DNA of 64,000 nt from Atrina japonica (Eukaryota > Mollusca > Bivalvia > Pterioida > Pinnidae): the NCBI GenBank assembly GCA_030159075.1, contig BROG01000245.1:834501-898500 (forward strand), written 5' to 3'. Shown in pieces: positions 21,611 through 43,254 of this stretch (positions within the stretch are counted from its first letter, which is position 1; the number at the start of each line of letters is the position of its first letter). The translations under genes and the position numbers were made by a program. The notes under the pieces were generated by a model, which had not been told where the DNA came from, made no database searches, and was given only the letters and a program-made list of their open reading frames with translations.

Positions 21611-21659
21611 TTATTTACTATATGTTAAAGACCCACTATTTCCATTTAACAAGTCTTAG

Positions 21660-22366
21660 TACATAGTATCGGCCTACACTTCTCGCGCTTGCGCACTTGA
21701 AACAGAACTCTCGACGACTAACAGTTACGAACACGGCCTACCGCTTCTCGCCACATGCGCACTGCACACCCTTAACGACGGTGGCTGCCATACGAGTTTT
21801 CACAAACCATGGAAAACCCCAAAGTTTCGGTTTAAAAATAGATTCACTCCGTCAGGGAAAACCCAAAGTTTCGGTTCTAAAAATAGATTCAAAAACTGGA
21901 AAAACCCAAAGGTTCTAAAAATAGATTCACTCTCACCTCAAAACTGGAAAAACAACTTCTCTCTCTTATTGACTTCCTCGTGAACTCTCGTGACCTCTTG
22001 TGACTTCTCGTGACCCCATCCTCTTAACGTAAAAGGCCATTGGCTCTTACCCCCAAGATGGCTGCCCCCACAAACCTTCCACTTCCGGTCATAGACACGC
22101 CTCCAAGCTCAACGATTGGCTCTTTCTACTTATTGCTATGAAAAATGACCCTCACTTCCGGTATGGTACGGACTTCCGGTATGACGTACTTCCGGTATGA
22201 CCTCACTTCCGTATATGACGCACTTGTCCCCCGGTTGTGACGTCACAGGCGGCTCTCCGGCGCGCACATTTGAAATTGAAATCATCTGATGACGTCAACA
22301 AAAACCGTTAAAAAGCGCCCCCAGGCGGCAAAATTCAAATGGCGCGTCGGAGAGCTGCCTATAACT
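21660..22366 (+). repeat. Polinton A right TIR
   Basis: Homologous in the same orientation to 41,560-42,169. Shared blocks are CTTCTCGC..GCGCACT, repeated GGTTCTAAAAATAGATTCAC, GACACGCCTCC..GCTCAACGATTGGCTCTTTC, ACTTCCGGTATGAC and the terminal GAGCTGCCTATAACT. The last ~120 bp can fold back on itself (arms at about 22,248-22,277 and 22,332-22,359). Confidence 0.85.
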
Positions 22367-24320: not shown

Positions 24321-24529
24321 CGCCCCTCTCTATTTAGGTTTTATGGTCACAAATAATCCCAATTATTCATCAGAATCATATAATTTTATTTTCTATTTTT
24401 TTTAAAATTACCCAGATTTATCTGTCAAAACAACACAAGCTGGAAAGACGACAAAAATATGTCGCTAATTTGCAGGTTATTTTGTCATCTTTTCACCTCA
24501 ATTTTGTCGTCTTTTCAAAATGTTAATTT

Positions 24530-24725
24530 GTACTCTTTTCTTCTTTTCGTTCTGTCCTCTTTTTGCCCCGTAATAACAAAAAAGTCGACATGGCACAAAT
24601 TAGCCACCATAGAAAACTGCATTGTAGAAAACTGCATTGTAGAAAACAGCAATGTAGAAAATGTAGAAAACTGCAACGTAGAAAACTGCATTGTAGAAAA
24701 CTGCAATGTAGAAAACTGCATTCCT
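24530..24725 (+). repeat. Dispersed element with 15-bp internal repeats, copy 1
   Basis: A unique head (TCGTTCTGTCCTCTTTTTGC..GTCGACATGGCACAAATTAG) leads into eight or nine copies of GAAAACTGCATTGTA. An inverted copy lies at 42,437-42,690. A 15-bp unit keeps several frames open, so the open frames here are not evidence of genes. Confidence 0.8.
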
Positions 24726-26939
24726 AATTATGATGTATCAGTTTAAGGAGCGCCTAAGATGCCTCAAATGTTCCTTGATTAAAATGATCTATATACATGT
24801 ATAACCCATGTAGAAGAGTATCAGATTACAGACTTTCTAATTATTTATATTGTTTAAATCTTGGTAACGATGTTGATTTCTTCAGGTAATACATATTGTT
24901 CCTGTTCCCGCGAATTCATAGTCCAGTGAATGGTAAGCTATTACAAGCCGTTAAAGGTGCATTAGTTGTGTTTACCAAGATTTTTACCTTTACTACTTGT
25001 ACTTGATGTACAATAACAAATAAGAGCTATACACAGACATAAAAAATCTTATAGTCCTAAATATTTTGTTGGCAATAAGGTCAGGTCCAGTGTGGAACTT
25101 GGGTTTCTCAAGCAATTTCCACAAAATACATAGGAATTTAAGAATTTGTATGTCTGCATATATCTCTTTTTTGATTATTTGATATCAATCAATGTAGTAA
25201 AAGGTGGGGGAAATTGAAAAAAGCTAACGCCCATTAACCAAAATCTTCAGCAAAATCTTAACCAGATAGGCTGGACTGAGGCAGTAAAAATCTACATCTC
25301 GTTTCGTTTCACTTAGAGGGGACTAATAACAGTAATGCTAAATAAATAAAAATTGACCATACACAATAGTCTGTAAAATACTTTTGTAAAAATAATTCAT
25401 TTTCAACACTAAACAGGGAATTTTTTCATCAAATTTGGGAAAAGTACATGCATTTTGCATTGGGAATGTGGCCAAAAATTTGGAAACTACGGGAAAACAT
25501 AAGATTAGATCATTCAAAAGGTCCCAGGCTCAATTTTGGGTTTTGGACAATTTAAACTTCAACAAAGGTAGTGACTGATCCTTAAAAACCACCATAACAA
25601 GTTAACTTATCAAAGGGAACCCCCGAAGAACAATGGACCCTTCTGTAATTCAATAACTTAGACCAGTCCAAATGTGTCTCTAGGTGTGAATGAGTTAAAA
25701 CGAACCGTTTCTTTTTAGATAAAACTTAAAACCTGGCTCCCATCTCATAGCAGTAATGGCATAATAACTTATCAACTCCTAAAAATCAATGGACTCTTCT
25801 GTAAAATCAATATCTTAGATTAGTCCAAATGTGTGTTAAAGGGTGATTGAGTTAGTTTCCTTGCTGCATTGGCATAAGTCCATAATGCAGGTCAAAATTT
25901 GTGGTACTTAACCTTAAGCTGGTGATATATCATTAAAAAGAAAAAATAATTTGGAGGACGCAACCCGCCCCTCCCCCCTCTATATTTTATATGTGAGTAT
26001 GTATATAGTGTTAGTTGGTCTCTTAAGTTGTATACCTATCAAATCATTAGTTTCTGCAGCTCGCATACTTAACACTGACACCCCTAACCTGATAATGTTT
26101 ACTTATTTAGTTTCTATGGTTACCAAGTAATTAACTAAAACAATGTATTTTCTTTCAAAATGTAAATTCATGAACACTTATCCAAGTATTACAGAGTCAA
26201 CTCCCCTTTTTAATCTGCTGATTATTCTCAGTCATCCTCCTATCCTATTTAAAGTTACATACATAATGACTTAATGACAAAATATCCATCAAAGTGATTT
26301 ATCTTGAATTTTATGAAATATATGTATATGAAAAAGATAAATTGAAAAATGAAAATGACCTGTTGCATACAGATCTCAGAAAAATATAATTTTAACTTTA
26401 TACTGCTGACCAAGTTATAAATCAAAACAAGGTCAACTATGAGGTTGACATTGTAAAGTAAAAGTGTAAGTAAAACGTTCAGAATAAACTAAAACAAAAA
26501 TAAAACTAATAATATATTTCCATTGTTTGTACACAAGTTTAAATTACAATAAAATACATTTTAAATAGAACTAACTAAATGAAACAGAGAGAGTCAAAGA
26601 ACTATAACATACGGTTATTATTTGAAAATTTGAATCTAATATGCAAGACAGAGTATTAAGTATATCAGAGTTGTCTCCAATTATGGATATGACCAACAAT
26701 ACTTGTTATTCTAATGTCACTGACAGTAAGTTATTTTCAGGGATCTACATTTTTCTAGTTTTCACGTTGAATCTGATATATTTTATTTCCAAGAGTGGAC
26801 GCAAGGATGTGGTAAGAGGATAGAAAAATGTCTATAAATCTTGCATATAATATTGTGCCATAAATAAGTCCCCAAGATATATTTCTCCATTATATTTTAC
26901 ATAATTTCAGCAAAACGTTCAGCACATTTTTATTTTATG
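24726..26939. other. Non-coding spacer
   Basis: AT-rich. A 60-codon frame at 26,641-26,823 has one hydrophobic stretch but no recognisable domain or splice signals that would support an exon. Confidence 0.5.
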
Positions 26940-28590: not shown

Positions 28591-28664
28591 ATAGTTCCCC
28601 AAAACAGAGGCTGCATATCCAAGATTTGTAAAGTCACTATGCATGTCTACCACTAGGGGTGAGT

Positions 28665-29382
28665 AGTTATAGGCAGCTCCATGGCGTGCCATTTGAATTT
28701 AACCGCCACTGATGACGTCATCAGAATGCTGGCTTCTGATCGGTCAATTCAAATGGCACGCCATGGAGCCGCCTGTGACGTCATAACCGGAAGTGCGTCA
28801 TACCGGAAGTGAGGTCATACCGGAAGTGTGTAATACCGGAAGTGAGGTCATGTTGTCATGGCAATAAGGCGAAAGAGCCAATCGTTGAGTTTGTAGGCGT
28901 GTCTATGAGCGGTAGTGGAAGGTTTTGGGGGCGGCCATCTTGGTTAAGGAGCCAATGAGAGCCTTCGTTACAAGAGGTTGGGGTCACAAGAAGTCACGAG
29001 AGGTCACGTGAGTTCCCGAGAAGTCAACAGTAAGAGAGAGAAGTTGGGTTTTTCCAGTTTTGAGCTGAGAGTGAATCTATTTTTAGAACCGAAACTTTGG
29101 GTTTTTCCAGTTTTTAGCTGAGAGTGAATCTATTTTTAGAACCGAAACTTTGGGTTTTTCCAGGTTTGTGAAACCAGTAGTTGGTGGCGCCACTGTCGGT
29201 GAAACTAGTAGTCGGTGGCGTCACCGTCGTTGAGAGTTGTGTATCATCAAGTGCACATGCGCGAGAAGTGGTAGGCCGAGCTCGTCACTGTGAGTTAGTC
29301 GGCGAGAGTCCTGTTTCAAGTGCGCAAGCGCGAGAAGCGGTAGGCCGAGCTCGACTCAAGCTTGTACTAAAGACTTGTGGAG
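28665..29382 (+). repeat. Polinton B left TIR
   Basis: Inverse of 41,560-42,169. Order: terminal hairpin, three or four CATACCGGAAGTGAGGTC-type units, AGCCAATCGTTGAG, GGGGGCGGCCATCTTGG, then tandem 54-bp units with GTGAATCTATTTTTAGAACC (29,046-29,165). GC-rich blocks containing GCGCGAGAAGCGGTAGGCCG and CTCAAGCTTGTACTAAAGAC follow. Confidence 0.9.
28672..28773. repeat. Terminal hairpin of left TIR
   Basis: Arms of about 28 bp (28,672-28,699 GGCAGCTCCATGGCGTGCCA... and 28,745-28,773) enclose a loop with the palindrome TGATGACGTCATCA (28,710-28,723). That palindrome contains a CRE/ATF-type TGACGTCA core. The same fold with different stem bases exists at the other two visible element ends. Confidence 0.8.
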
Positions 29383-29559
29383 TAAAATGTATAGTGAAGG
29401 GTCTTTAAGGTATAGAGTGAATGAACATTGATTAGATGATGGGGGTATTTCCCTGATACCATAATTAAGTGATAAGTAATGAAGTTACCTATTTTTTTTT
29501 TTCTGAGATATTGTTTGTACATGTTTCATACGATAAACACTAAACCTATGGTAATAAAA

Positions 29560-29860
29560 ATTCAAACACTCACCCTATGCTGGTAGTGGTTTTCTGACGA
29601 TGTTGACTCTTCGAGCTTCGGATCGCAAATGAGCTCTCAGAGGTCTAACTGAACCTATACTCTAGTCATGTGACTTTTTTTGAGATAATTATATTTTTAG
29701 TGCATGGAAAATAATCTTGTCCTATCTAATAAAAAATGAAACACTCACCCTATGCTAAAAGTAGTGGATTTTTCTTATGATGTTAACACCTTGAGCTTCG
29801 GATCTCAAATGAGTTTTCACAGGTTGAACTGAACCTCTCTCTAGTCACATGACTTACTAT
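29560..29860. repeat. Polinton B left subterminal repeat, two units
   Basis: Two units of about 180 bp with AACACTCACCCTATGCT, a CTTCGAGCTTCGGATCGCAA-type block and CTAGTCA(C/T)(A/G)TGACTT. One inverted counterpart is at about 40,780-40,880. Confidence 0.8.
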
Positions 29861-30029
29861 ATTAAGGCTTTTATCTAATGAAGTGAATACATCATAACAA
29901 AAACACAAAAAACACAAATATAATTTAATATTGAATATACGCGACTAAATAGTGTGTAGTCACTACAAATTAACACAAACACAAACCCTGCATACCTTTA
30001 GTGAAGGTTTCTTTCCGAATAAGTTGAGT

Positions 30030-30045
30030 GGCCCTTAAAAGGGCC
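30030..30045 (-). terminator. Histone-type 3' stem-loop 1
   Basis: On the minus strand this reads GGCCCTTTTAAGGGCC, a 6-bp stem with 4-nt loop. It lies 36 nt past the stop of the gene at 30,082-30,387. A purine-rich GGAAAGAAACC (minus, 30,008-30,018) follows, like a U7 snRNA-binding histone downstream element. The loop differs at one base from the usual TTTC. Confidence 0.75.
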
Positions 30046-30081
30046 GTTGATTGCTCCGAAAAGCTGAATAAGAGAGAGACT

Positions 30082-30387
30082 CTAATATCTGTCGAGTAGA
30101 CGTCGCCAACGACGAACTTCTCTTTCTTTTTCTATCATCAGTCGATTTATCTCGGCCTTATGTTGTCGAAGATTGGCTAATGCTTCCTGAGCTAGTACGT
30201 ATTGTACAGGTACTGGAAGTGAAGGGTCAGGTCTAGGTGGTTCCTGGTGTTGTGTAGTCGGTGTCACAGGGGTCCTACCAGAATTGATTGGGCTGCGTGG
30301 CCTTACTACAATACGTGTCCTCTGTGTCAGAATGATTCGTATGTTTCTCTCTTCAGGTTGCATCTCCATGCCGGATGAGTTATCCAT
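30082..30387 (-). CDS. Small basic protein with C-terminal coiled coil (unknown)
   Basis: 101 codons, uninterrupted. The N-terminal half is acidic and then Arg/Pro-rich (RIVVRPRSPINSGRTP, PRPDPSLPVPV). The C-terminal third (about residues 65-101) is an amphipathic helix rich in Glu/Lys/Arg (NLRQHKAEINRLMIEKEREV) ending RRWRRLLDRY. No known family is recognised. A TATA-like TATAA lies on the minus strand at about 30,425-30,430, about 40 bp upstream of the start. A histone-type stem-loop lies just past the stop. It diverges from the polymerase gene across a 30-bp repeat array. The basic C terminus could bind nucleic acid, but that is inference. Confidence 0.6.
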   Translation of the reverse strand: MDNSSGMEMQPEERNIRIILTQRTRIVVRPRSPINSGRTPVTPTTQHQEPPRPDPSLPVPVQYVLAQEALANLRQHKAEINRLMIEKEREVRRWRRLLDRY

Positions 30388-30424
30388 GATGATGAACTAA
30401 TACCGAGACTCGGGCAGTATTAGC

Positions 30425-30431
30425 TTATATG
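30425..30431 (-). promoter_or_regulatory. TATA box of the small gene at 30,082-30,387
   Basis: CATATAAG on the minus strand at core-promoter distance from the ATG at 30,387. Confidence 0.5.
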
Positions 30432-30469
30432 GAGTGAATGACGTCACGTATTGATTTTTTCTCCCGTCT

Positions 30470-30690
30470 GAACATCTGGCCACCCGTTGTTGACACTTGA
30501 CATCTGAACACCTGTTTTTGACACTTTTGACACTTGGCATCTGAACACCTGTTTTTGACATTTTTAACACTTGGCATCTGAACACCTGTTTTTGACACTT
30601 GGCATCTGGCCACCTGTTTTTGACATATGGCCACCTGTTGTTGTAGCCTGTCTAGACATCTACGTCTAGACATTTGGCCACCTGTTTTTT
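30470..30690. repeat. About 29-30 bp tandem repeat between divergent Polinton B genes
   Basis: About seven units of CACCTGTTTTTGACACTTGG with CATCTGAA or CATCTGGC. They sit between the minus-strand small gene and the plus-strand polymerase gene. Position and regularity make a shared enhancer or replication element possible, but no function is shown. Confidence 0.85.
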
Positions 30691-30928
30691 AAGACAGATA
30701 CTGTCACTAGTTTTTAATATTTCTAATTCTATATGAAAATAAAACGAAATACAATACATTCTAGTTTTATGGACCTATAAAACATAAAAGACTAGAATAT
30801 AAAAGACTATATAAATGTGATGATACTTTGTTTGAGTATCTATACAGTTCTTTTCTTTTTTATTATAAATATATGTCTACAGTTACCGTACTTCATTTTA
30901 GATTTGACAACGGAAGCATACACACGGA

Positions 30929-33900
30929 ATGGCTAATTTACCGAACTTTGATTTATTGTTAAATGAAAGACAAGAACAGGCGAGAAGTCAAAGACAGGCT
31001 CACCAGAGAGATCAACGGGGTGATGGATTTAATGCAAACAGACAACTCACCGATTATAGTGATTACTATGAAGTAGACACCCTGAGTGAGCGTAAATCAC
31101 GTAAGTTTAAAACGGCTTCGAATGTGTACCAAGTCAAATTTAAACATTTTTCTAAAGATGCCATACACTTGGTATCAGAGGTAATAGATCATATGTTGAC
31201 TTCTATTAAGAACAAACTACAGTGTGAAGATCGGGATAAGATGAGAGTCAATATACATCATCCATCTTTAAAAAGTGTGGGTAGAATTTACGGATGCTAA
31301 AGACCTGAATGCTGATCTACTCATGGAGAAAATTGAGAAAGTGCAACAGAGTAATGAAAATTTTAAAATCGAAGATGGGTCTACCACCCTGTCAGTAATC
31401 CATGTCATACAACCTGTAGGTAGTGGGGGTGGAAAACGAAAATATCATCTCAGTGTTGATAAAAAAGTCATGCTGAACAAGAAGAGAAGTTTGATTCAGA
31501 TCAAGAATACAGACAAAACCTGTTTAGCTCGTGCTATTGTAGTTGGTCGTTTTCATTGTCAGAAACCTGGACATGGAGATGGAGACAAGTACAAAAACTG
31601 GCAACGCTATTGGAAAACTTTGATTTATGGTGATGCAAATAGATATACCCTTCAACGACGAGAAGCTCATGTCTTAATGCAACAAGCTGTATGTGATCCC
31701 CAGCAAGAGAGTGGACCTGAAGAATGGCAACGTTTTCAGACTGTGTTGTTACCCCACTACCGTTTGAAAATCTACGAGTTGAATACCAACGCAAAACGAT
31801 TGACATTAAATGTACTGTATAGTGGTGCAGGATCCGGGGCCCCCATTCACGTCTTATACGATGATCACCATTACGATTGTATCGTATCTATGCCTGGACT
31901 CTTGGAATGTAATTACTATTGTGACCGTTGTGATGTGGGTTATAATCATGTAGAAGATCACCGATGCCCTCAGCGTTGCTTTCGTTGTTTTGCAGCGTCG
32001 CCCTGTGTTCCCGACAACACAATAAAACCAATAGAATGTACACATTGTCATGGGACATTCATATCGACTCAGTGTTACGAGAATCATTTGAAACCTTATA
32101 GTAGTAATACGACCACTACTCCATGTCAGCTAATGACTCGATGTCCCACTTGTCAAGTATGGATGAGTAAGAAACAATTCACACAACACTGCTGTCAAGA
32201 AAAGAAGAAAAAATGTCGCCATTGTAAACAGATCGTGGATCTAGATCATCGCTGTTTTATACAACGGATCCCTTCTCAGGATGAATCATCTTCACCCCCT
32301 TATTACATTTTCTATGATTTTGAGTGTACCCAGGATACCGGAGAGAACACAAACCTAATCTATGTATTGCTCATCGAGTATGTCCCCAGTGTACATCCGA
32401 TGATTGGTGTGAGCAATGTAAAACCATGGAGGATCATCGTATTATATTCCGAGGTCCCCACGACACTCACTGATTTTTTGACTTGGTTATTTGAAACGAC
32501 CGTGTATGATGACATACATCAAAGGGAGAAACTTTTACATGATGGAGCTATAGCTATTGCTCATAACTTTAAAGGGTACGATGGACAGTTTATTTTACAT
32601 CATCTGGTACATCATGCCTGTGAAAAACCTGATGTGATCATGAACGGTTCTAAGATTATGTCTATGACGGCAGGAAACATCAGGTTTAAAGACTCGTGTA
32701 ATTTCTTGTCATTTCCTTTAGCTTCGTTACCTAAAGCTTTTGGATTGACTGAACTGAAGAAAGGCTACTTTCCACATTTGTTCAATACAGAAGCTAATGC
32801 TGATTACATAGGAGTATATCCCCCAGCTAAGTATTACAACCCAGAAGGTATGAAACCTGATGTCCGTCGTGATTTTGAAGCGTGGTATCAAGACCAAATT
32901 CAAAAGGGTGAGATTTTTCATTTGCAATGCGAATTAGAAGAATACTGTGAATCGGACGTGACTATTTTGCGACAAGCTTGTTTGCATTTTCAAAGCATGT
33001 GTTTGAAACTAACCGATGTGGACCCCCTTTGCTGAATCGATTACGTTTGCCAGTACGGGAAATATAGCCTATCGTCGCAATCATATGCAAAAAGATACGA
33101 TTGGTATCATACCTCCGCGGGGATATCCTTCACCACGACAGTATTCCACCCTAGCATTACGCTGGTTGAGCTGGAAAGAACATGAAACTGGTCAAACGAT
33201 TAGACATGCTCGTCAGGGAGGGGAAGTCCAAGTAGGATCTTATCGTGTGGATGGTTATCATGAAGACTCTTGCACCATTTACGAGTTTCATGGCTGTTTT
33301 TGGCACGGATGCCCCTTGTGTTTTCCTAAGTTAAAGCAAGAGCAACACCCGTTTCATCCTTCTTTGACGTATGAAGAAGTGTATCAAAAGACCTTAGAGA
33401 GAGATCAGTATTTACGTCAACACTATCAAGTAGAAACGCTGTGGGAACATGACTATCGTCAAAGGTACAAGACGGATCCAGAGTTTCAACATTTCATTGA
33501 TAAATCGTATGAGGAGTTTCCCGACCCGTTAGTTCCTAAAGATGCTTTATTTGGAGGTCGAACGAATGCTACTCGTTTGCTTTGCGAAGAAGGAGACATT
33601 CGTTACGTGGATGTATGTTCTTTGTACCCGTTTGTCTTGAAACATGGGACTTTTCCCATTGGACACCCAGACGTGATTACTCATGATTTCAAAAGTCTAG
33701 ATCAATATTTTGGACTGGTACAGTGTCGAGTCATTCCTCCTCGTCATCTGTTTCACCCCGTGTTACCTTATCGGTTTGCAGGAGGAAAGCTACTTTTTCC
33801 TTTATGCCGTACTTGTGCTCAACAAGGAATCGAACAGGAGTTGGGTATGAGTTATCGATGTTCTCATACGAATCAAGAACGACGTTTGTTAGGTACATGG

Positions 33901-34888
33901 ACGACGTGTGAATTGAATAAAGCTATAGAAAAAGGTTATGTGATCGATCGTATCTTTGAAGTATGGCATTTCCCTGATCAGTCCAATACTTTATTTCGTA
34001 GCTATATTGATCAGTTTCTCCAGATTAAGCAACAAGCTAGTTGTTTTCCTGCTTCCTGTCAAAACAGAAGAAGATCGTCGTCAGTACCTCAAAGAGATTG
34101 AAACGAGAGAACAACTGATCATACGAGAAGACGATGTAGAGAAGAATCCTATCTTACGGACCATTGCTAAACTGTTTCTGAACTGTTTGTGGGGTAAATT
34201 TGCTCAACGGACTAATTTACCTCAGACACAGTATGTGGAGAGTTACGAAGCATTACAACAGTTACTTCAAGATGATACTCGTGAGATATTACATTTAGAA
34301 CTGATTCCAAATGACGAAGGCCATGATGAGCTTGACATGATGCTGGTGAATTCAAAACAGAAGGATGACTTTGATGAACCCAATGGTTTTAGCAATGTAG
34401 TGCTAGCAGCCTTTACGACGTCTTTAGCACGGTTACATCTCTATGCCACCCTAGAACGTTTGGGAGAGAACGTGTGTTTATATTTTGATACAGACAGTAT
34501 CATTTATCAACACGATCCACAGCAGTGGAATCCTACTATCATAAACAGTTTAGGAGGATGGACAGACGAATTAGATGGCGATTCTATCTTATCCTTTGTC
34601 TCGGGAGGTCCTAAAAAATTATGCGTACAAGACTCGTCAGGACAAAACGGTGTGTAAAGTCAAAGGAATCACTTTTGATAGTCGTACCACTTCTACAGTC
34701 AACGTAGATACATTGAAACAGTTGTTACGTGGTCAACAAAAGAAAGTACTGGTATCGTACCCTCATAAGAACATGCGAACGAAACAACATAAAGTCAAAA
34801 CACAGGCGATGACTAAAGAAGTGTGCGTGTCGTGTATGATAAGAGACATCGCATTGAAAACTTTTGTACTTTACCTTATGGTTATTGA
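30929..34888 (+). pseudogene. PolB: Protein-primed family B DNA polymerase of Polinton B, frame-broken
   Basis: The reading runs from ATG 30,929 through at least five frame changes (about 31,275, 33,015, 34,050, 34,600 and 34,830) to a TGA at 34,886-34,888, about 1,300 codons. An N-terminal domain and Cys/His-rich zinc-finger-like region (31,900-32,270; CDRC, CFRCF, CTHC, CPTC, CRHC) come first. The proofreading exonuclease follows with FYDFEC (32,310-32,327), HNFKGYDGQF (32,562-32,591) and YCESDVTIL (32,943-32,969). The polymerase has DVCSLYP motif A (33,610-33,630), LNCLWGKFAQR motif B (34,178-34,210) and YFDTDSI motif C (34,481-34,501). All catalytic acidic residues are present. Most breaks sit in or beside homopolymer runs. 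It is the largest Polinton gene and would copy the element from a terminal protein primer. Confidence 0.9.
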
Positions 34889-34904
34889 ATAAAGTTTGAA
34901 TAAA
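34888..34904 (+). terminator. Poly(A) signals of the polymerase gene
   Basis: Two AATAAA hexamers (34,888-34,893 and 34,899-34,904). The first overlaps the final base of the stop codon. No histone-type stem-loop is present here. Confidence 0.65.
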
Positions 34905-34956
34905 GTTTTTTGAGTAATAAAATTTATGAGTTTGACTTTGGTGTTGGTGTTGTTGA

Positions 34957-34964
34957 TATAAAAC
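34957..34964 (+). promoter_or_regulatory. TATA box of the minor capsid gene
   Basis: TATAAAAC lies 65 bp upstream of ATG 35,022. Confidence 0.6.
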
Positions 34965-35021
34965 AGAAGACAGTGAAGGGTAGGGGTTCATTGATACAGT
35001 TGGATCTCAAGTACACGCATC

Positions 35022-36059
35022 ATGGCGACTCTCGATTCTAAAGATCATGGTAGTTTTTTACATGACTTTACCTATCGATGCTAGTTTAAAAAGTCTTTCC
35101 CGATAATACCTTAACAGAATTCAAAACTCATTTACCTCAAGCTTTAAGTATGATGGATAGTGAGTGGGAAGTAGCGTTGAGTGAATTGATCTTTCCCAAC
35201 TTGATAGAATCGATAACATCCGATGAGAATTACATAGATGTCCTGGTTCCCCTTCACGTTCCTTTGGAATCCGTCGTGACACCTAAAAATCTTCAGGACC
35301 CCTCTACGTATCCCAAGAAAAAGGAAATGAAATATCGTCAACATGAACGTTTTACTGTAGAATTGATTAAGAAACACGTCTCGTTAGATGATCCCCAATT
35401 TGATCATGTCATCTCTAAAACTGATACGAAATCGGGGATCGCTTTTTGTAGGAAGTATTTGGAGACTTTAAATTTCGTTCGGGGCTTTATGCGTCTCCTG
35501 CTGCTTTAATAGAAGAGATGAAAGTTGGTTTTTCTAGAGCCTTTCAATATGTCATTGATGGGATAGAAGATCTCTCTCATAAAAAATACTATTAAATTCA
35601 GATATGACGAAGCTTTAGATCGATTCATCATTGAGTTTAAAGGCCGATCCATCTATTCCGTTCCCTTTTTAATACGTTTTCCAAGTCTACTGGGTTATAA
35701 GCTAGGCTTTGAAGCCGTTGACATGAATGCGGAGATGACGAAATGGATCGATGTCACACACATGCCACGGTATCCACCCGATTTAAATATTGGTATGAGT
35801 GGTATCTATGTCTACAGTAAACATTGCCGAAAGTCAAATTGTAGGTTCACAATCGTTACCGTTATTACGTGTGGTCCCTTTTCAAACGGGTCAATCGCTC
35901 AATCATCAACATTGGGAACCTTTTCATTACAATTATGTGGGTTTAAATAAAAAGTATTTTTATACCATTGAAATACAATTGAGAGATGACATGGGACGTA
36001 AAATTCATTTTCTAGGAGGAAAAGTGATTGCCAAACTTCATTTTCGTCGTGTCATTTAA
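35022..36059 (+). pseudogene. mCP: Penton-like minor capsid protein (single jelly-roll) of Polinton B, frame-broken
   Basis: The opening MATLDSKDHGS is followed by FPDNTLTEFKTHLPQAL and SEWEVALSELIFPN (35,096-35,190), the hallmark N-terminus of Polinton/adintovirus minor capsid proteins. An FRSGLY-type segment (about 35,478), MPRYPPDLNIGMSGIYVY (35,762-35,815), LLRVVPFQTG (35,860-35,890) and YTIEIQLRDDMGRKIHFLGG (35,960-36,020) follow, ending LHFRRVI. Total is about 345 codons, the usual size. Breaks lie near 35,080, 35,480, 35,590 and 35,815, some of them stops. The intact family forms pentamers at capsid vertices. Its presence without a major capsid gene in the same element is notable. Confidence 0.85.
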
Positions 36060-36091
36060 AATGAAGTGCAACACAGGACTTGGGTCAGTTG

Positions 36092-36754
36092 ATGACCGAG
36101 AGTCATCGTGTTCACATCTTGTATTTGACATCTATCAATATGAAACCAACGAAAAGAGAAAATGACATGACTAAAGACGCGAGAAAAGAAGACATGAAAA
36201 GACGAAAGGGGTGGAAAGGGGAGAAACAGAGAGAAGAGAAACAGAGAGAAGAAGAAGAGAAACAGAGAGAAGAAGGGAAACAGAGAGAAGAAGAAGAAGA
36301 AGAACAGAGAGAAAGAATAGGGGAAACGATGGAAGGACAGGAAAAGATAGAAGGAGATAAAAAGTCAGAAGGACAGAGAGATGAAGGAAAAGAACAGAGA
36401 ATGAAAAGAAAAGAGGGACGTCCACGCAAAGTATCCGTAGAGAGAACAAAAGAACAAAGAGAAGAAGAAGAAAAGGGACAGAGGGAAGGAGTGAAAAGGG
36501 AACGACCACGAAAAGTAGAACAGGAAGAAATACCTCATGATATTTTAATGTTTCTACGACAATGGTTAAGCGATTGTCGTCAGTCTCCCATGTACGGTGA
36601 CACCTTTCATTTACAATTAAATGATAATAATGGCAATCGAGCAGGTATGATGTATCATGTGCATAAAGAACAACGACAAGTAGCATGGGATCCTTTTGGT
36701 CATCATGTAGACGTACCGATGATACAATTTGTGTTTCAGGACAAAAAAACGTAG
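36092..36754 (+). CDS. Arg/Glu-rich low-complexity protein with conserved-looking C-terminal domain (unknown)
   Basis: About 220 codons, uninterrupted. Starts at 36,092 or 36,140 (MKPTKREND) are both possible. Residues about 25-145 are a charged repeat of EKQREE type, predicted as a long helix or coiled coil, with two GRPRKV/ERPRKV motifs resembling minor-groove-binding AT hooks. The last 70 residues (IPHDILMFLRQWLSDCRQSP to the C-terminus) have normal composition and look globular. No family is recognised. It starts 32 bp after the minor capsid stop. An AT-hook-like basic protein in a virus-like element could be a DNA-packaging or core protein; this is inference. Confidence 0.6.
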   Translation: MTESHRVHILYLTSINMKPTKRENDMTKDARKEDMKRRKGWKGEKQREEKQREEEEKQREEGKQREEEEEEQRERIGETMEGQEKIEGDKKSEGQRDEGKEQRMKRKEGRPRKVSVERTKEQREEEEKGQREGVKRERPRKVEQEEIPHDILMFLRQWLSDCRQSPMYGDTFHLQLNDNNGNRAGMMYHVHKEQRQVAWDPFGHHVDVPMIQFVFQDKKT

Positions 36755-36802
36755 ATAAATATGATTTTTTAGTTCTGATCTAAAAATAGATTTTATGAAC
36801 CA

Positions 36803-36810
36803 TATAAAAA
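36803..36810 (+). promoter_or_regulatory. TATA box of the BIR gene
   Basis: TATAAAAA lies 51 bp before ATG 36,854. The nearer ATG at 36,821 would precede the expected transcription start, which favours 36,854. Confidence 0.6.
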
Positions 36811-36853
36811 GGGAGTGAGAATGCACATCAGGGACCATTCACTCTCAGACACG

Positions 36854-37399
36854 ATGGAAAGAACATCAAGTATGGAAACTTTATTTTCATTTACGATGGA
36901 TGCTAGTCAGACCGTCACGGATAGTGCTCCCATGAACCGAGACATGATGGATAGTGTACCACGAGTTCATCGAGTAGAAGTAGATAGTGTACCACGAGCT
37001 CATCGGGTTGAAGTGGATAGCGTACCGAGAGTCAATTTGATAGAAATGACAAGGACTCCACCTACCGAAAGGAGACAAGGTGTGACCACTTTTAAACTAA
37101 GACCTGCTACCGTCAGAGGGTTATCGTTTCATCAGGAATTAAGAATACCTTTAGCCTTGCCTAATTTTTGTACGTATGAATCCAGGTACCTGACGTTTAA
37201 AGATCATTGGCCCAAATATCTACCGGGACCTAAACAGACAGAATTAGCCAGAGCAGGATTTGTGTATTTAGGGAAAAGTGACCACGTTCAGTGTTTTTCT
37301 TGTGGCATCTGTTTAAAAGATTGGGAATGGAGCGATAATGCTTTTACAGAACATCGACGTTGGTCTAAAGATTGTGCTTTCAGTCAATTGCTGATATAA
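36854..37399 (+). CDS. BIR-domain (inhibitor-of-apoptosis-type) protein carried by Polinton B
   Basis: 181 residues, uninterrupted. The N-terminal third has a 13-residue repeat (DSVPRVHRVEV, DSVPRAHRVEV, DSVPRVNLIEM). The C-terminal ~75 residues are one BIR zinc domain. It opens YESRYLTFKDHWP, contains the GxxYxG-like AGFVYLGKSDHVQCFSC core, and fits C-x2-C-x16-H-x6-C exactly (CFSC ... EHRRWSKDC). No RING, UBA or CARD follows. BIR domains in IAPs bind caspases or IAP-binding motifs, and single-BIR proteins also occur in insect and mollusc viruses. A role in blocking death of the infected cell is inference. Poly(A) of about 28 nt follows the stop within 12 bp. Confidence 0.88.
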   Translation: MERTSSMETLFSFTMDASQTVTDSAPMNRDMMDSVPRVHRVEVDSVPRAHRVEVDSVPRVNLIEMTRTPPTERRQGVTTFKLRPATVRGLSFHQELRIPLALPNFCTYESRYLTFKDHWPKYLPGPKQTELARAGFVYLGKSDHVQCFSCGICLKDWEWSDNAFTEHRRWSKDCAFSQLLI

Positions 37400-37404
37400 A
37401 CATA

Positions 37405-37432
37405 ACAAAAAAAAAAAAAAAAAAAAAAAAAA
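37405..37432 (+). repeat. Long A homopolymer after the BIR gene
   Basis: A run of about 28 A starts 8 nt after the TAA, with no upstream AATAAA. Confidence 0.85.
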
Positions 37433-37514
37433 ACCCTGTGTGGAGCCTCCCTTCTGGGAACATCCAAGTGGCTGACGGGAACGAGTCTAAATATAGAATA
37501 AGAAGAAGAACGGC

Positions 37515-37521
37515 TATAAAG
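37515..37521 (+). promoter_or_regulatory. TATA box of the CCHC gene
   Basis: TATAAAG lies 53 bp upstream of ATG 37,568. Confidence 0.55.
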
Positions 37522-37567
37522 TAAAGTGAAGTGCAGTGACCAAACATCATTTGAATCAGTCATCAAC

Positions 37568-37750
37568 ATGAGTTATCCAGGCTTGTCACAGACGCACCCA
37601 AATTATTCACCTAATATTACACCTTACCTAGAAGGGGCCGATGAGTTTGATGAAGTTCTCAAAACTTTAGACCAGTTGCAAGAAAAACAAGAAAATGATG
37701 CGACCCAGGGAATGTTACGTGATGCCTTGCTATCCACATTACAGAAATGA
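37568..37750 (+). CDS. ORF1 of zinc-knuckle gene: acidic 60-residue protein
   Basis: MSYPGLSQTHPNYSPNITPY opens an acidic, Leu/Gln-rich helical segment (FDEVLKTLDQLQEKQEN). The TGA at 37,748-37,750 overlaps the ATG of the next frame as ATGA. The two frames may be one protein split by an indel, or two products linked by reinitiation or frameshifting. Confidence 0.6.
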   Translation: MSYPGLSQTHPNYSPNITPYLEGADEFDEVLKTLDQLQEKQENDATQGMLRDALLSTLQK

Positions 37751-38145
37751 GGGAAGAACTCACGACTATTACAACTACTCTGAAAGAATTGAAGGATAAC
37801 GTACAGCCAGGAGTCAGAACATCATATATGGGGTACGAATATAAGCCTACGCTACAGACTCATCCTTGTTTCATTTGTGGTGAAATTGGACATTGGTCTC
37901 CTAGATGTCCTAAGAATAACGAGTCGGCAACAACACCAACAACATCAGTAAGAGTAAAACCTGAGAACAAAGTAGACAATCGATCTCGTCAATCGGACCA
38001 GTGTTATAAATGTCATCAGTCAGGTCATTGGGCTTATGAATGTCCCGAACAGACTTCAACAGGGGTCAAACGTAAACTCAACTTGATGCTCAAGAAGGGA
38101 GGCAAAGCCACCAAGAAAGGGAAAGTGGAAACCGAACAGCAGTGA
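37747..38145 (+). CDS. ORF2 of zinc-knuckle gene: double CCHC protein
   Basis: 132 residues. A helical start (REELTTITTTLKELKDNVQP) is followed by two retroviral-type zinc knuckles, CFICGEIGHWSPRC (37,869-37,910) and CYKCHQSGHWAYEC (38,002-38,043), both C-x2-C-x4-H-x4-C. A Lys-rich tail (KKGGKATKKGKVETEQQ) ends the protein. Such knuckles bind single-stranded nucleic acid, as in retroviral nucleocapsid and CNBP. They are not standard in Polintons, so a nucleocapsid-like or mRNA-binding role is inference. Downstream at 38,194-38,212 lies the motif shared with Polinton A. Confidence 0.75.
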   Translation: MREELTTITTTLKELKDNVQPGVRTSYMGYEYKPTLQTHPCFICGEIGHWSPRCPKNNESATTPTTSVRVKPENKVDNRSRQSDQCYKCHQSGHWAYECPEQTSTGVKRKLNLMLKKGGKATKKGKVETEQQ

Positions 38146-38815
38146 TTGTGTTTTTAGTACTGTTTATCATGTAAATACGTTTAGTGTCACAGCGTCAAGG
38201 AATCCGAACCGACCGATCTAGGACAAAAGCTGACGTTCTTTTGCTCCGTGCTGTATGGGCAAGATCAACCGTAGTAGTGAGACAAAGTGACTCAAAGTTT
38301 TGTGATGAACGTTTTAACATGAGTTAATGTTTTCAAAGTTAATGTTCTCATAGTTCATTCTTATGTATTGTACATAGTCACAGAAAGTGAATCAGTGTTC
38401 TCATAGTTAATGTTCTGATAGTTAATGTTCTCATAGTTCATGCTTATGTATTGTACATAGTCACAGAGGGACGGCCCTAATCCTCTGTCGACTATCTAAA
38501 ACGTTTTTAGCGGGGCATTAAACTTATTAAAAATGATCTGGTGTTTGTGTATTTATGACTAAAAGGTGTACACGTTTAGAGTACACTTAGAGTTTAAACC
38601 TACTGGTATAAGGTGTACACTAAGAGTACACTTAGAGTCCTGCTCTAGTATCTACAAGGTAGACATAAAGGAGTGATCTAATGTAAAAAACAAAACTACA
38701 AAACTATGAGTAGAAGGAGATCAAGAGTAAAAGTGTAACACTTAGAGTGAGATACAGAGAAAGAGATACAGAATAAGGGTATACAAAGGATCTATGTTTT
38801 ATTACTGCTCTAATC
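38146..38815. other. Polinton B intergenic region with short direct repeats
   Basis: Contains GTCAAGGAATCCGAACCGA (38,194-38,212, shared with Polinton A). Two ~50-bp copies around TTATGTATTGTACATAGTCA (38,360-38,385 and 38,440-38,465) and two GGTGTACAC..AGTACACTTAGAGT units (38,567-38,640) follow. No gene. Confidence 0.6.
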
Positions 38816-38817
38816 AG

Positions 38818-39078
38818 TCATAGGTTTCTTTTCGTAAAAGTTAGGTGGCCCTGAAAAGGGCCGTTTTTTTGTGTTTTAGGCTTTATATGCCATGGCATAA
38901 AAAAGCATTTTGTCCGTTTTCTCTGCCGTCTTTCTCTTTTTCTTTTTTCAAGCTTCACGAGCTCAATCCATTCGTCGATATTCGATAACCACCCCACCTT
39001 TCTTCCAACTGTATCGGCACATATCAACCATTCTTCTTTTTCTTGTACTTCGCCCCACATGTTTACACAGTCAGCCAT
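38818..39078 (-). CDS. Small basic protein 2 (unknown), probably frame-shifted at its end
   Basis: MADCVNMWGEVQEKEEWLIC begins at ATG 39,078. A lysine/arginine-rich segment (KLEKRKRERRQRKRTKC) follows at about residues 42-58. As read, the frame runs through the histone-type stem-loop to 38,818. Another frame has a stop at about 38,897, before the stem-loop, and a T-run at about 38,902-38,907 lies between. An indel there is therefore likely. The gene diverges from the one at 39,199, with 120 bp between starts. The function is unknown; the basic tract suggests nucleic-acid binding or nuclear targeting. Confidence 0.5.
   Translation of the reverse strand: MADCVNMWGEVQEKEEWLICADTVGRKVGWLSNIDEWIELVKLEKRKRERRQRKRTKCFFMPWHIKPKTQKNGPFQGHLTFTKRNL
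38847..38862 (-). terminator. Histone-type 3' stem-loop 2
   Basis: Minus strand GGCCCTTTTCAGGGCC, preceded by AAAAAAAC and followed by ACC, matching the animal histone mRNA consensus in stem, TTTC loop and flanks. A downstream GAAAAGAAACC (minus, 38,823-38,833) resembles the histone downstream element. Confidence 0.85.
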
Positions 39079-39120
39079 GATCAAACAATGACTATAGACT
39101 CTGAGACATACTCGGCAGGG

Positions 39121-39132
39121 TGTGACGTCACA
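39121..39132. promoter_or_regulatory. CRE/ATF-type palindrome in a divergent promoter
   Basis: TGTGACGTCACA lies centrally between the starts at 39,078 (minus) and 39,199 (plus). Confidence 0.6.
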
Positions 39133-39198
39133 CATCGCGTGAGCGTTTCTTCTTCTCCTTCTTGTTGAACATCGCTTAGTGAAAAAACAAAAACCAAA

Positions 39199-39558
39199 AT
39201 GGAGAGCATCTATAGAGAAGCTATTTACAGAATTATTCTGTTACAACAGAAGACCAAGTGGCGTACAATGAAGTGTAATCGTTACTATCAGAGTCTACTG
39301 ACGAAACTGAATCTGAGATGGAGGCAACTGAAACATCAGCAAACGTCGCAGATAGTCAGAGATCAACTCGACCTGCAGTACCGACAGTGCTTAGAGTATT
39401 TGTCAGCGCAGTATGTTTCTACTAGAAAACAGATTAGAACTAGTTTTCGTCAACTACAGATACCGATCATCATGACGATCAAGAGAAAGACAGATGATCT
39501 ACTGGAAGCAGAACGACGTTTACCTCTGAAAAAGAGAAGATGTTACTGTCAATATTAG
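39199..39558 (+). CDS. Small basic protein 3 (unknown), histone-type mRNA end
   Basis: 119 residues, uninterrupted, very basic and helical (MESIYREAIYRIILLQQKTK; then YYQSLLTKLNLRWRQLKHQQ). It ends in RRLPLKKRRCYCQY. The LPLKKRRC terminus resembles LPFKKRFC of the gene at 39,826-40,095. No histone fold or other family is recognised. The stop is followed after 13 nt by a consensus histone stem-loop. High Arg/Lys/Gln content suggests nucleic-acid binding, possibly packaging, but this is inference. Confidence 0.65.
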   Translation: MESIYREAIYRIILLQQKTKWRTMKCNRYYQSLLTKLNLRWRQLKHQQTSQIVRDQLDLQYRQCLEYLSAQYVSTRKQIRTSFRQLQIPIIMTIKRKTDDLLEAERRLPLKKRRCYCQY

Positions 39559-39571
39559 TAACCTAACTAAC

Positions 39572-39587
39572 GGCCCTTTTCAGGGCC
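39572..39587 (+). terminator. Histone-type 3' stem-loop 3
   Basis: GGCCCTTTTCAGGGCC with ACTAAC before and ACCCAAC after, a near-perfect animal histone mRNA consensus. A purine run GAAAAG follows at about 39,600. Confidence 0.88.
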
Positions 39588-39783
39588 ACCCAACTCATTA
39601 GAAAAGTAATCTAAACTGTATTGAGATATGCTACATCTACTACTCTATAAAACATAAACCCTATTACTCATTTTATTGTGTCATAAACCCTATAACTCAT
39701 TTAATTGTCTCATAAACCCTATAACTCATTTTATTATATACACTGCACATTCAGTTTAAGGTTTCTTCTCGTAAGATATAAGT

Positions 39784-39799
39784 GGTCCTGAAAAGGACC
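39784..39799 (-). terminator. Histone-type 3' stem-loop 4
   Basis: Minus strand GGTCCTTTTCAGGACC. The second stem pair is changed on both sides (T-A in place of C-G), so base pairing is preserved. CGAGAAGAAACC (minus, 39,760-39,771) follows. It lies 26 nt past the stop of the gene at 39,826-40,095. Confidence 0.88.
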
Positions 39800-39825
39800 G
39801 TTGTTTTTGGCATATCTGCCATGAT

Positions 39826-40095
39826 TCATGTACAGAATCTCTTTTTAAACGGCAAACACTTCTCATCCATTTGCTTACGTTTTCTCTCTTCTCTACCAAA
39901 CCGTAAAACAGAATTGAGAAGTACAATTCGTCTCAGGCGAACATCTTCTTTTCCCTGATGAAAGTTCAGATCAATCTTTCGTAACTTATCTTTAGTATCA
40001 CGAATAATCTGCCTAGTATCATATACAGGCTCGATTAGAATAGGTTCGATTTCTTGTTCCATAGTGTACTCCATAGTATACGCCATGTTTGACAT
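39826..40095 (-). CDS. Small basic protein 4 (unknown), histone-type mRNA end
   Basis: 89 residues, uninterrupted; starts at 40,095 or the next ATGs (40,086, 40,074). The N-terminus is acidic and Met/Tyr-rich (AYTMEYTMEQEIEPILIEPV). The middle is helical (DTRQIIRDTKDKLRKIDLNF), and the C-terminus is basic (FGREERKRKQMDEKCLPFKK) ending RFCT. It pairs divergently with the gene at 40,308. The C-terminal basic/Cys signature is shared with the gene at 39,199. No family is recognised. Confidence 0.62.
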   Translation of the reverse strand: MSNMAYTMEYTMEQEIEPILIEPVYDTRQIIRDTKDKLRKIDLNFHQGKEDVRLRRIVLLNSVLRFGREERKRKQMDEKCLPFKKRFCT

Positions 40096-40156
40096 TTTTT
40101 ATTTTTATCACTCTTAGACTGATTTCTCCTAGGCGTCTATCACTCTTGGCGTTTTC

Positions 40157-40258
40157 ATTGGTGGAATCACGTTGCCAACGATACATAGACCAATCATCAA
40201 AAAGGTCAAAGTTGACGAGGCGGAGTACGTCGCATGCACTATACTGCTCATATAAAAA
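40157..40258. promoter_or_regulatory. Divergent promoter with CCAAT boxes and TATA box
   Basis: ATTGGT (40,157), CCAAT (40,190-40,194) and TATAAAAA (40,251-40,258) lie between the starts at 40,095 (minus) and 40,308 (plus). CCAAT plus TATA is typical of replication-dependent histone promoters, though not unique to them. Confidence 0.5.
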
Positions 40259-40307
40259 GCCGTGCGCGTCTCATTTCACTGCGCTTCATATCAAGAAGAC
40301 ACACAAC

Positions 40308-40564
40308 ATGGCACAGCCAACAAAGCAAAGTTCGGAACTTGTGATTGATACCACTCTCTTTTGGGCGAGAAAGCCGCAGTACCTGTTGAAGACCCTGAAG
40401 ACGGCCTCCCAGGAGTGGGAGTATTTTGAGAAGCAAAAGGCCGGGATTACGAGAAGCAAAAGGCCGGGATGACGAGATTCTGTGAAGTTGCTGCGGCCCG
40501 TGCAGCAGCAGCAGAAAGGAAAAAGCTAGTGTGTTGTAGGGACTGCTGCTACTGCTGCCTATAA
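40308..40564 (+). pseudogene. Small protein 5 (unknown), broken by a 23-bp tandem duplication
   Basis: MAQPTKQSSELVIDTTLFWA starts the frame, which ends early at 40,472. A 23-bp unit (40,428-40,450) is repeated exactly but for one base at 40,451-40,473, shifting the frame. Past the duplication the other frame holds an Ala-rich run and a Cys-rich end (CCRDCCYCCL) closing at 40,562-40,564, 31 nt before a histone-type stem-loop. Basic residues followed by cysteines at the C-terminus echo the genes at 39,199 and 39,826. No family is recognised. Confidence 0.55.
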
Positions 40565-40595
40565 GGCACAGGGTTTTAACAACCCATCAACAAAC

Positions 40596-40611
40596 GGTCC
40601 TTTTCAGGGCC
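40596..40611 (+). terminator. Histone-type 3' stem-loop 5
   Basis: GGTCCTTTTCAGGGCC (one G-T/U pair in the stem) with CAAAC before and ACCTAAC after. CGAAAAGAAACC at 40,624-40,635 is a strong histone-downstream-element match. Confidence 0.88.
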
Positions 40612-40639
40612 ACCTAACTTACACGAAAAGAAACCTTAA

Positions 40640-41559
40640 CTGAAACTATGCAGTTTTTGTGATGTGTTATACTATAGTGGTAAGTCTAACCTATAGTAAG
40701 TAAGTTATTTCTTTTACTTGATTGATCAAATTTTATAAGATAGAAATTCAAAACGAGGCAATTCTAAAAATAGTAACATTAAAAACTTGAGAATAAGTTC
40801 AGTTAGACTACTGAGAGCTCATTTGGCAGCCGAAGCTCGAAGAGTCAACATCGTCAGAAAAATTGCGTGAGTGTTTAATTTTTTATTTTATATACAGTAG
40901 TACAAGAAATATAAAAACTTGTTGAAACGACGTAAGTGAACAACTTCATACTTTACACTTTACAACTTTTGTCACTTTGTCACTTGTGTTACTTGTGTCA
41001 CTTTGTTACTTGTGCTACTTGTGTCACTTTGTCACTTTTGTCACTTTGAGACTTCATAACTTAGAACGTTGCACACGTTGCAAACTTTGAAACATGAGAA
41101 CGGCACACACTTGATCACTTTGACAAACTTTGAGAACGACACAAACACTTGATCACTTTGACAAACTTTGAAACATGAGAACGGTACACACTTGATCACT
41201 TTGACAAACTTTGAGTACGTTACACACTTTCATGTTCTATGGTTCTCACTCCTGTCGTGAGATTAGTCAGTCCCTGAAAAACTAGATATCCCATGATTCC
41301 ATAGCCAAGATGGCTACCCTTCCTAACCTTTCTGTTTCACTACCCACCCTCCCTCTCTGGTTTAGTGCCTACAGCCTATAAAGAGTCATCACCCATTTTG
41401 TTTCACCCTATAGTCTATACAGAGTAATCTCCCTTTGTTTCACCTATACAGGCTATACAGAGTGATCTCCCTTTGCCCCATCTCTACAGTCTATACAGAG
41501 TAATCTCCCTTTGTTTCACCTATAGAGTCTATACAGAGTAATCTCCCTTTGTACATACT
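40640..41559. repeat. Polinton B right subterminal repeats
   Basis: 40,780-40,880 is one unit of the ~180-bp subterminal repeat. 40,965-41,060 is CACTTGTG/CACTTTGTCA-type short repeat. 41,090-41,230 has three units of CACACTTGATCACTTTGACA. 41,385-41,555 has four or five units of CTATACAGAGTAATCTCCCT. The last two are absent from the left end, so the termini are asymmetric inside the TIR. Confidence 0.75.
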
Positions 41560-42169
41560 CTACAAGTCTTAGTACAAGCTTGAGTCGAGCTCGGCCTACC
41601 GCTTCTCGCGCATGCGCACTTGTGCACTCTCACCGACGGTGGCGACACCTACTGCTGGTTTCACAAACCTGGAAAAACCCTAAGTTTCGGTTCTAAAAAT
41701 AGATTCACTCTCAGCTCAAAACTGGAAAAACCCAAAGTTTCGGTTCTAAAAATAGATTCACTCTCAGGTCAAAACTGGAAAAACCCAAAGTTTCGGTTCT
41801 AAAAATGGATTCACTCTCAGCTCAAAACTGGAAAAACCCAACTTCTCTCTCTAGCCGTTGACTTCTCGTGAACTCACGTGACCTCTCGTAACCTCTATTG
41901 ACCCCAACCTCTTGTTACGAAGGCTCTCATTGGCTCGTTAGCCAAGATGGCCGCCCCACAACCTTCCACTTCCGGTCATAGACACGCCTCCGAGCTCAAC
42001 GATTGGCTCTTTCTCCTTATTGCCATGACAACATGACCTCACTTCCGGTATGACGTCACAGGCGGCTCCATAGCACGCCATTTGAATTGACCAATCAGAA
42101 GCCAGCATTCTGATGATGTCATCAGTGGCGGTTAAATTCAAATGGCGTGCTATGGAGCTGCCTATAACT
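41560..42169 (+). repeat. Polinton B right TIR
   Basis: Inverse of 28,665-29,382, with three or four 54-bp units (GGTTCTAAAAATAGATTCAC, 41,680-41,840) against about two on the left. The terminal hairpin has arms at about 42,061-42,088 and 42,134-42,162. It ends GGAGCTGCCTATAACT. Confidence 0.9.
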
Positions 42170-42385
42170 ACTATTTATGTTTACTCGCGTTAAAGAGAAT
42201 TTAATTTGCTCAATTATAACGATTAATTAGATATATCGATATAACCCCTATGTCAACCATCGTTGCCAATGATCATTTGGTTATTATTAGTATAATGAAA
42301 TTTCATGTTCTGTTTCCATTATCAAACTGATGAAAATATTACATATAATGAAGCGCACAAACACACACACTGAAATTTCGAGATA

Positions 42386-42432
42386 TTATTATTATTATTA
42401 TTATTATTACTATTATTATTATTATTATTATT
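42386..42432. repeat. (ATT)n microsatellite
   Basis: ATT trinucleotide run. Confidence 0.95.
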
Positions 42433-42436
42433 ATAT

Positions 42437-42690
42437 ATTTCTACAATGCAATTTTCTACATTGCAGTTTTCTACGTTGCAATTTTCTGCATTTTCTACAA
42501 TGCTTTTTTCTACAATGCTATTTTCTACAATGCAGTTTTCTACAATGCAGTTTTCTACGTTGTAATTTTCTACAATGCTTTTTTCTACAATGCAGTTTTC
42601 TTTGGTGGCTAATTTTTGCCATGTCGACATTTTGTTATTTCGGGGCAAAAAGAGGACAGAACGAAAAGAAGAAAAGAGGACAAATAAACA
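42437..42690 (-). repeat. Dispersed element with 15-bp internal repeats, copy 2 (inverted)
   Basis: Inverted relative to 24,530-24,725: TTTTCTACAATGCAG-type 15-mers, then TTTGGTGGCTAATTTTTGCC, ATGTCGACATTTTG and AAGAGGACAGAACGAAAAGA. Confidence 0.85.
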
Positions 42691-43254
42691 TAGCGAATTT
42701 CACTAGTATTTTCATATTGCCTGAAAATGTGCGTACGCGAAATAAGGTATTCGCGAATATATAAAAGATTGCATTATGAGGTAAGGTATATTGGTTTTAA
42801 TAAGTGACGTTGGAGAAAACGCAGTGCATTTCTATTATGTATATCAACAGAGAAAAATGGAAAACAATGCATATTACATATTTTATTACCAAATCGTAAA
42901 GAGTGTCAATATAAGGTTGGAGGTCAAATATTTTACATCTAACAAATTTAAATGGACATCAGCTGTGTTTTAACAAATTTTTTGTTTTCCTTCTTTGTTA
43001 CTTAGATTGGTATACAATAACAAGAAAGAAATATATACAGACTCAGGAATTCTTAAATTTGTAAAGACAGCTAATGTGCCTTTAATACATAATACTTTAA
43101 GTCTTGTTTAAAATGCTGTAAATGTAATAGATAAAAATGGAGCAAAACTTATAATTACCATGTACCAAGTAATATTGAAACATATTCTTGATTTTTTTTT
43201 TCAAACGATTAGAGTATCATTTAGTTCTACGTTTGATTGCTTTCCTTTTATATA
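42691..43254. other. Non-coding AT-rich spacer
   Basis: No supported gene. Confidence 0.5.

Follow-up and report, generated by a model that had tools for sequence, protein, structure and literature searches.

Why should protein-coding genes carried by a mobile element end in an RNA signal that animals use for histone messages? In that signal SLBP binds the histone hairpin, U7 pairs with the tract downstream, and the cut falls between them. The question arises from a 64,000-nucleotide stretch of the Atrina japonica genome (the window), in which five small genes of a Maverick/Polinton-like element, here called A to E, are each followed by such a hairpin.

Five hairpins behind five small genes

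Five 16-nt hairpins were confirmed in the window by pattern search, and the sites and strands that a first-pass annotation of this DNA had assigned to them, including the TTTA loop at 30,030, were all correct. All five fit the 18-nt pattern GGYCCTTTTMAGGRCCAC without mismatch; no further match was present in the 64 kb even at ≤3 mismatches, and in 100 shuffles searched at ≤3 mismatches the mean was 0.12 matches and the maximum 2, so that no shuffle came to 5. Each hairpin is predicted to fold into a 6-bp stem with a 4-nt loop. The genes and their 3′ ends are as follows.

30,082–30,387, minus: gene A, 101 aa, without known domain (open frame; Pfam and PHROGs searches empty at E ≤ 1)
30,004–30,050, minus: histone-type 3′ end of gene A (hairpin 30,030–30,045, loop TTTA, plus downstream tract; RF00032, 37.2 bits)
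38,876–39,078, minus: gene B, small basic protein, frame broken near its end in this copy (three-frame reading)
38,822–38,867, minus: histone-type 3′ end of gene B (hairpin 38,847–38,862; RF00032, 38.5 bits)
39,199–39,558, plus: gene C, 119 aa, predicted to form a long helical hairpin (recurs in the host genome)
39,567–39,612, plus: histone-type 3′ end of gene C (hairpin 39,572–39,587; RF00032, 37.9 bits)
39,826–40,095, minus: gene D, 82–89 aa (open frame; no Pfam match; divergent from E, convergent with C)
39,759–39,804, minus: histone-type 3′ end of gene D (hairpin 39,784–39,799, double change at pair 3; RF00032, 34.4 bits)
40,308–40,562, plus: gene E, small product whose other copies have a Cys-rich tail (reading frame interrupted after codon 54 here)
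40,591–40,637, plus: histone-type 3′ end of gene E (hairpin 40,596–40,611; RF00032, 32.5 bits)

Comparison with the Rfam model, which the first-pass annotation had proposed as a check, placed four of the five hairpins above the RF00032 gathering score of 34 bits and that of gene E just below it. Every hairpin has the orientation of the preceding gene and lies a short way past its stop (A 36, B 13, C 13, D 26, E 33 nt; for B and E the stop was taken from another same-strand frame, both frames being broken in the window copy). This agrees with the earlier description of strand-matched hairpins about 13–36 nt after the stop, and the frame shift suspected before the 38,847 hairpin agrees with the break near the end of gene B. 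Two details of that description had to be amended: ACC, said to follow every hairpin, follows those of B, C and E, those of A and D being followed by ACT; and the downstream tract of gene C, which had been grouped under GAAAAG/AAGAAAC, reads GAAAAGTAATC and not AAGAAAC.

None of the five products matched a histone family in Pfam at E ≤ 1, B and E being scanned as far as the window frames run. The candidate explanation that these are histone genes interrupted by a transposon was ruled out, since by Pfam the five products are not histones. Gene C is predicted to form two long helices and one short helix (pLDDT 90); it had no relative at E ≤ 0.01 in a set of 5.8 billion proteins (6 candidates) and one weak PDB match, to ribosomal bL28m (E 0.022). 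Gene E, about 70–80 aa in most other copies, is predicted with low confidence to consist of helices and a Cys-rich tail. The gene pairs B/C and D/E are divergent; TGACGT occurs upstream of A and of B/C and CCAAT upstream of D/E (consensus matches only). In copies selected for open frames, dN/dS was 0.32 over 17 copies of C, 0.54 over 15 copies of D and 0.20 over 14 copies of E (from 80 of 91 pairs, saturated pairs dropped). An AATAAA lies 72 nt past the stop of gene B and 90 nt past that of gene D, so the B and D messages might also be polyadenylated and these motifs could serve as a back-up.

The signal in other copies and in host histone genes

A search of the host genome (832 Mb) with gene C returned at least 150 scored matches (548 candidates; 66 to 100% identity), some of them truncated or with stops. 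From these, 50 loci were picked by gene C homology, comprising the top 30 matches and a further 20 less similar ones (66 to 77% identity) and including the window copy, and a hairpin was called when within two mismatches of the core. It was found 3′ of gene B in 44 of 48 loci (30 perfect), of gene C in 48 of 50 (38 perfect), of gene D in 45 of 49 (31 perfect) and of gene E in 40 of 42 (32 perfect); one of the two gene E misses is the window's own copy, where the scan ended short of its hairpin. For gene A, tblastn gave matches in five loci only, all of which had been identified by a hairpin, so no unbiased count is available. As a separate observation, gene E is far more divergent between copies (L033, L035, L038, L044, L061 and others) than the neighbouring genes C and D, as if it had been exchanged or were under a different regime.

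The converse search, with RF00032 against the whole host genome, gave 75 scored matches (155,611 candidates), 72 of them above the cut-off. Among the 30 of these 75 that were taken as loci, 24 encode proteins of the element, a core histone is encoded by none, another five match its DNA (L025 weakly), and one is the host H1 gene L011; 29 of the 30 therefore represent the element or its relatives. A gene C relative with 46% identity (dN 0.38, dS 1.05), itself found through the hairpin, carries a perfect hairpin of 41.6 bits.

Two host histone genes provide the comparison. L011 encodes a linker histone H1 of 217 aa (PF00538, E 3e-21), its hairpin lying 28 nt past the stop (41.9 bits), and L082 an H2A of 133 aa (PF00125, PF16211) with a hairpin 24 nt past its stop (39.0 bits). 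Both have GGCCCTTTTAAGGGCC, then ACCCA, then GAAAAG 13 nt after the stem, the same signal layout as in the element genes. Searching the host genome for the histone family yielded 12 matches among 18 candidates; four were examined (L082–L085), and among these no canonical core-histone cluster was found. The comparison rests on two genes because no hairpin appeared in the 501–601 bases examined of L083 and L085 (both H2A) and of L084 (an H3 exon); these three are perhaps replication-independent variants. Compared over 48 bases, the five element signals agree with the two host signals at 31 to 39 positions, and none of 20,000 random window stretches does so at more than 25.

In all, 164 distinct hairpins were collected, two of them from the host H1 locus L011, leaving 162 without it. 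GAAAAG or a near variant stands at 13 nt in 135 of these 162, and in 160 of them the fifth nucleotide past the stem is A; according to PMC6303110, this is the position at which histone mRNA of animals is mainly cleaved. Across the 164, the loop is TTTC in 119, TTTA in 31, TTTT in 7 and another sequence in 7, and pair 3 of the stem is C-G in 109, T-A in 34, T-G in 9 and unpaired in 12. The two-sided stem change that the first-pass annotation had pointed out at 39,784 is a replacement of C-G by T-A at this third pair and is thus shared with the other T-A hairpins. The likeness to replication-dependent animal histone genes (RF00032) extends to the hairpin, the AAC flank, the A at the cleavage site, the purine tract at 13 nt and the short distance from the stop; the differences are that the element products are not histones and that their genes lie in a mobile element with many scattered copies. 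Such palindromes are reported for clam histones in PMC6210712, and for Hydractinia PMC5011920 describes the hairpin and tract as marking histone genes expressed in S phase. A U7 model gave no match in the host genome, and the control genomes were likewise without a match. The signal behind the small genes is real, histone-type and widely retained.

Alternative explanations and the proposed use of the signal

The central claim of the first-pass annotation, that the five genes have histone-type 3′ ends, is upheld by the Rfam family match, the likeness to host histone genes, the recurrence in copies and the conservation at gene E described below. We consider it highly probable, from the sequence comparisons, that genes A to E carry the full replication-dependent histone 3′-end signal, one that probably gives their messages SLBP/U7-type ends without poly(A) and expression in S phase. 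It might instead be passive baggage, a histone 3′ UTR that was once captured and duplicated and that persists only since the element copies are young. Many of the gene C matches are indeed 90% or more identical, and in the lower-identity copies (20) the hairpins of C and D are no better kept than nearby sequence. For gene C (21 copies) identity was 0.891 in the hairpin, 0.878 in the coding end and 0.935 in the 20 nt after the tract, and for gene D (20 copies) 0.874, 0.853 and 0.851, respectively; many of the C and D copies compared are decaying. Because the hairpin there is only about as conserved as the neighbouring sequence, its retention in decayed C and D copies is partly plain inheritance. 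Gene E, the cleanest test of selection because its coding sequence differs most between copies, argues the other way. At a synonymous divergence of ~1.2, mean pairwise identity was 0.932 for the 48-nt hairpin plus tract against 0.575 for the coding sequence, 0.570 from stop to hairpin and 0.764 over the 80 nt that follow (based on 20 of the 26 open copies, all 20 fitting the hairpin patterns used; L010, L032, L043, L060, L068 and L075 were left out). Another gene E set, of 14 copies, agrees (coding end 0.505, hairpin 0.844). Further points against mere persistence are the change of pair 3 on both sides of the stem and the fact that five products without evident relation nevertheless share the hairpin-tract stretch at their 3′ ends. 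We therefore regard passive inheritance as an improbable account of the signal as a whole.

More improbable still is that the hairpins act as DNA sites in replication, packaging or recombination, or as a generic viral terminator, and merely resemble histone ends. They do form inverted pairs, four of the five lie near the right end of the element, and within the window they occur only inside it. But all five are strand-matched to a gene, 13–36 nt past its stop, and they equal the host histones in the loop, the AAC flank, the A at the cleavage site and the distance of 13 nt to a GAAAAG-like tract, none of which a DNA site would require. Histone genes often come in divergent pairs, and the arrangement of B/C and D/E, together with small and partly basic products, might suggest diverged histones or histone mimics that have kept a normal histone 3′ end. 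We give this the least credence: apart from the empty Pfam search, the two very long helices predicted for gene C are unlike the histone fold, and the low-confidence prediction for gene E is of helices with a Cys-rich tail.

Use of the histone-type signal in RNA is likely, and the host machinery should accept this signal, since its parts and spacing equal those of the two host genes. In the proposed course of events, host SLBP would bind the hairpin of the A to E pre-mRNAs, U7 snRNP would pair with the GAAAAG-like tract, and cleavage of the pre-mRNA would follow nucleotide 5 beyond the stem. The resulting mRNAs would be exported without poly(A) and would give a pulse of A to E proteins during S phase, and in germline cells or cells that divide rapidly, at times when the DNA of the element could be copied. 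This suggests that the element borrows the timing of host DNA replication. It also seems probable, with somewhat less assurance than the nature of the signal itself, that a Maverick-like family moved a set of non-histone genes (five here) into the host's replication-dependent histone mRNA pathway and so tied them to S phase, which would make these the first non-histone animal protein-coding messages known to end in this way.

No report of histone-type 3′ ends on viral, Polinton, adintovirus or transposable-element genes was found in the open-licence literature, in keeping with the first-pass annotation, which knew of no such Polinton or adintovirus. Adomaviruses with 'Histoid' genes are similar in being DNA viruses that touch on histone biology; according to PMC11071296 they encode histone-like proteins, whereas in the present element only the 3′ RNA signal is histone-like. 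If the proposal is right, a selfish element acquires S-phase timing without having to supply a factor itself, and poly(A)-selected RNA data would miss the A to E messages. The element family would also provide naturally varied hairpins and tracts, well above a hundred distinct ones, with which SLBP/U7 specificity could be examined.

The carrier element and its surroundings

The element that carries genes A to E has the following further features.

28,662–42,172, no strand: whole Maverick/Polinton-like element, 13.5 kb (inverted arms, AGTAGT...ACTACT termini)
28,662–29,666, no strand: left terminal inverted repeat region (ungapped blocks 90–98% complementary to the right end)
40,785–42,172, no strand: right terminal inverted repeat region (complementary to the left end)
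30,929–31,300, plus: small gene before the polymerase, without hairpin (open frame; no Pfam match)
31,323–34,892, plus: family B DNA polymerase of organellar/viral type, in four open pieces, broken in this copy (PF03175)
36,092–36,754, plus: charged protein (open frame; its counterpart in a second copy, L086:1780–2460, has AT-hook motifs, PF02178)
36,821–37,399, plus: BIR-domain (inhibitor of apoptosis-like) protein, without hairpin (PF00653, E 2.7e-22)
37,747–38,145, plus: CCHC zinc-knuckle protein, without hairpin (PF00098, E 1.2e-11)

The left arm (28,662–29,421) and the reverse complement of 41,515–42,172 are identical in 569 of 801 alignment columns, gaps counted. An inner inverted repeat (29,590–29,666 against 40,785–40,861) is part of the element ends, which a wider search extends to 28,662 and 42,172. 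The outermost bases, AGTAGT...ACTACT, correspond to (AGT)2...(ACT)2, the commonest end motif for vertebrate Mavericks according to PMC8097293. No equal 3–12 bp were found directly outside the terminal repeats as a target site duplication. With the pieces of the polymerase searched apart, PF03175 was found in three and the fourth was without match. The polymerase has 205 relatives, and those named among the 120 listed are from oysters, Mercenaria, Haliotis, spiders and beetles; from its family, PF03175, we infer that it is protein-primed.

Neither the window frames scanned nor the middle of the second copy L086 gave a Pfam match to a retroviral-like integrase, and the same holds for capsid, packaging ATPase and protease, of which very distant versions would escape Pfam. 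That middle part is collinear with the window element at 95% and adds no such genes. In the 5.8-billion-protein set, three relatives, none of them named or with a domain, were found for one frame from the centre of a second copy. Polymerase sequences found no relatives of the element in IMG/VR. A single hairpin-pattern match there (L001) scored 18.8 bits with Rfam, far below the cut-off, and was treated as chance. The element thus resembles Mavericks/Polintons and adintoviruses in its family B DNA polymerase, long terminal inverted repeats and (AGT)2...(ACT)2 ends, and differs from them in its size of ~13.5 kb, in the genes and target site duplication not found and in having five genes with histone-type 3′ ends. 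The first-pass annotation had named it a Polinton, which its terminal ends and polymerase support; because no integrase, capsid gene or target site duplication was found, 'Polinton-like' is the safer name.

The polymerase gene has AATAAA 6 and 23 nt past its end and no histone hairpin within 200 nt, and the other central genes have neither AATAAA nor hairpin within 200 nt. Because the polymerase gene has AATAAA and lacks the hairpin, the element would run two 3′-end programmes, one of ordinary polymerase messages and one of S-phase, poly(A)-less A to E messages.

A further partial copy of the element end repeats lies about 7 kb to the left of the element (21,137–22,164) and is possibly a remnant or a short non-autonomous derivative. 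Inverted blocks of a 15-bp tandem repeat occur at 24,520–24,734 and 42,418–42,691, the latter just beyond the right end of the element. The window also contains a satellite-like array of about 41 copies of a 47-bp unit (7,263–9,160) and, at 61,616–63,082, about 41 copies of a 36-bp tandem repeat with an open frame of 496 aa made up of 12-residue repeats (MNTHDPNYLFKI), to which the Pfam matches look like low-complexity bias.
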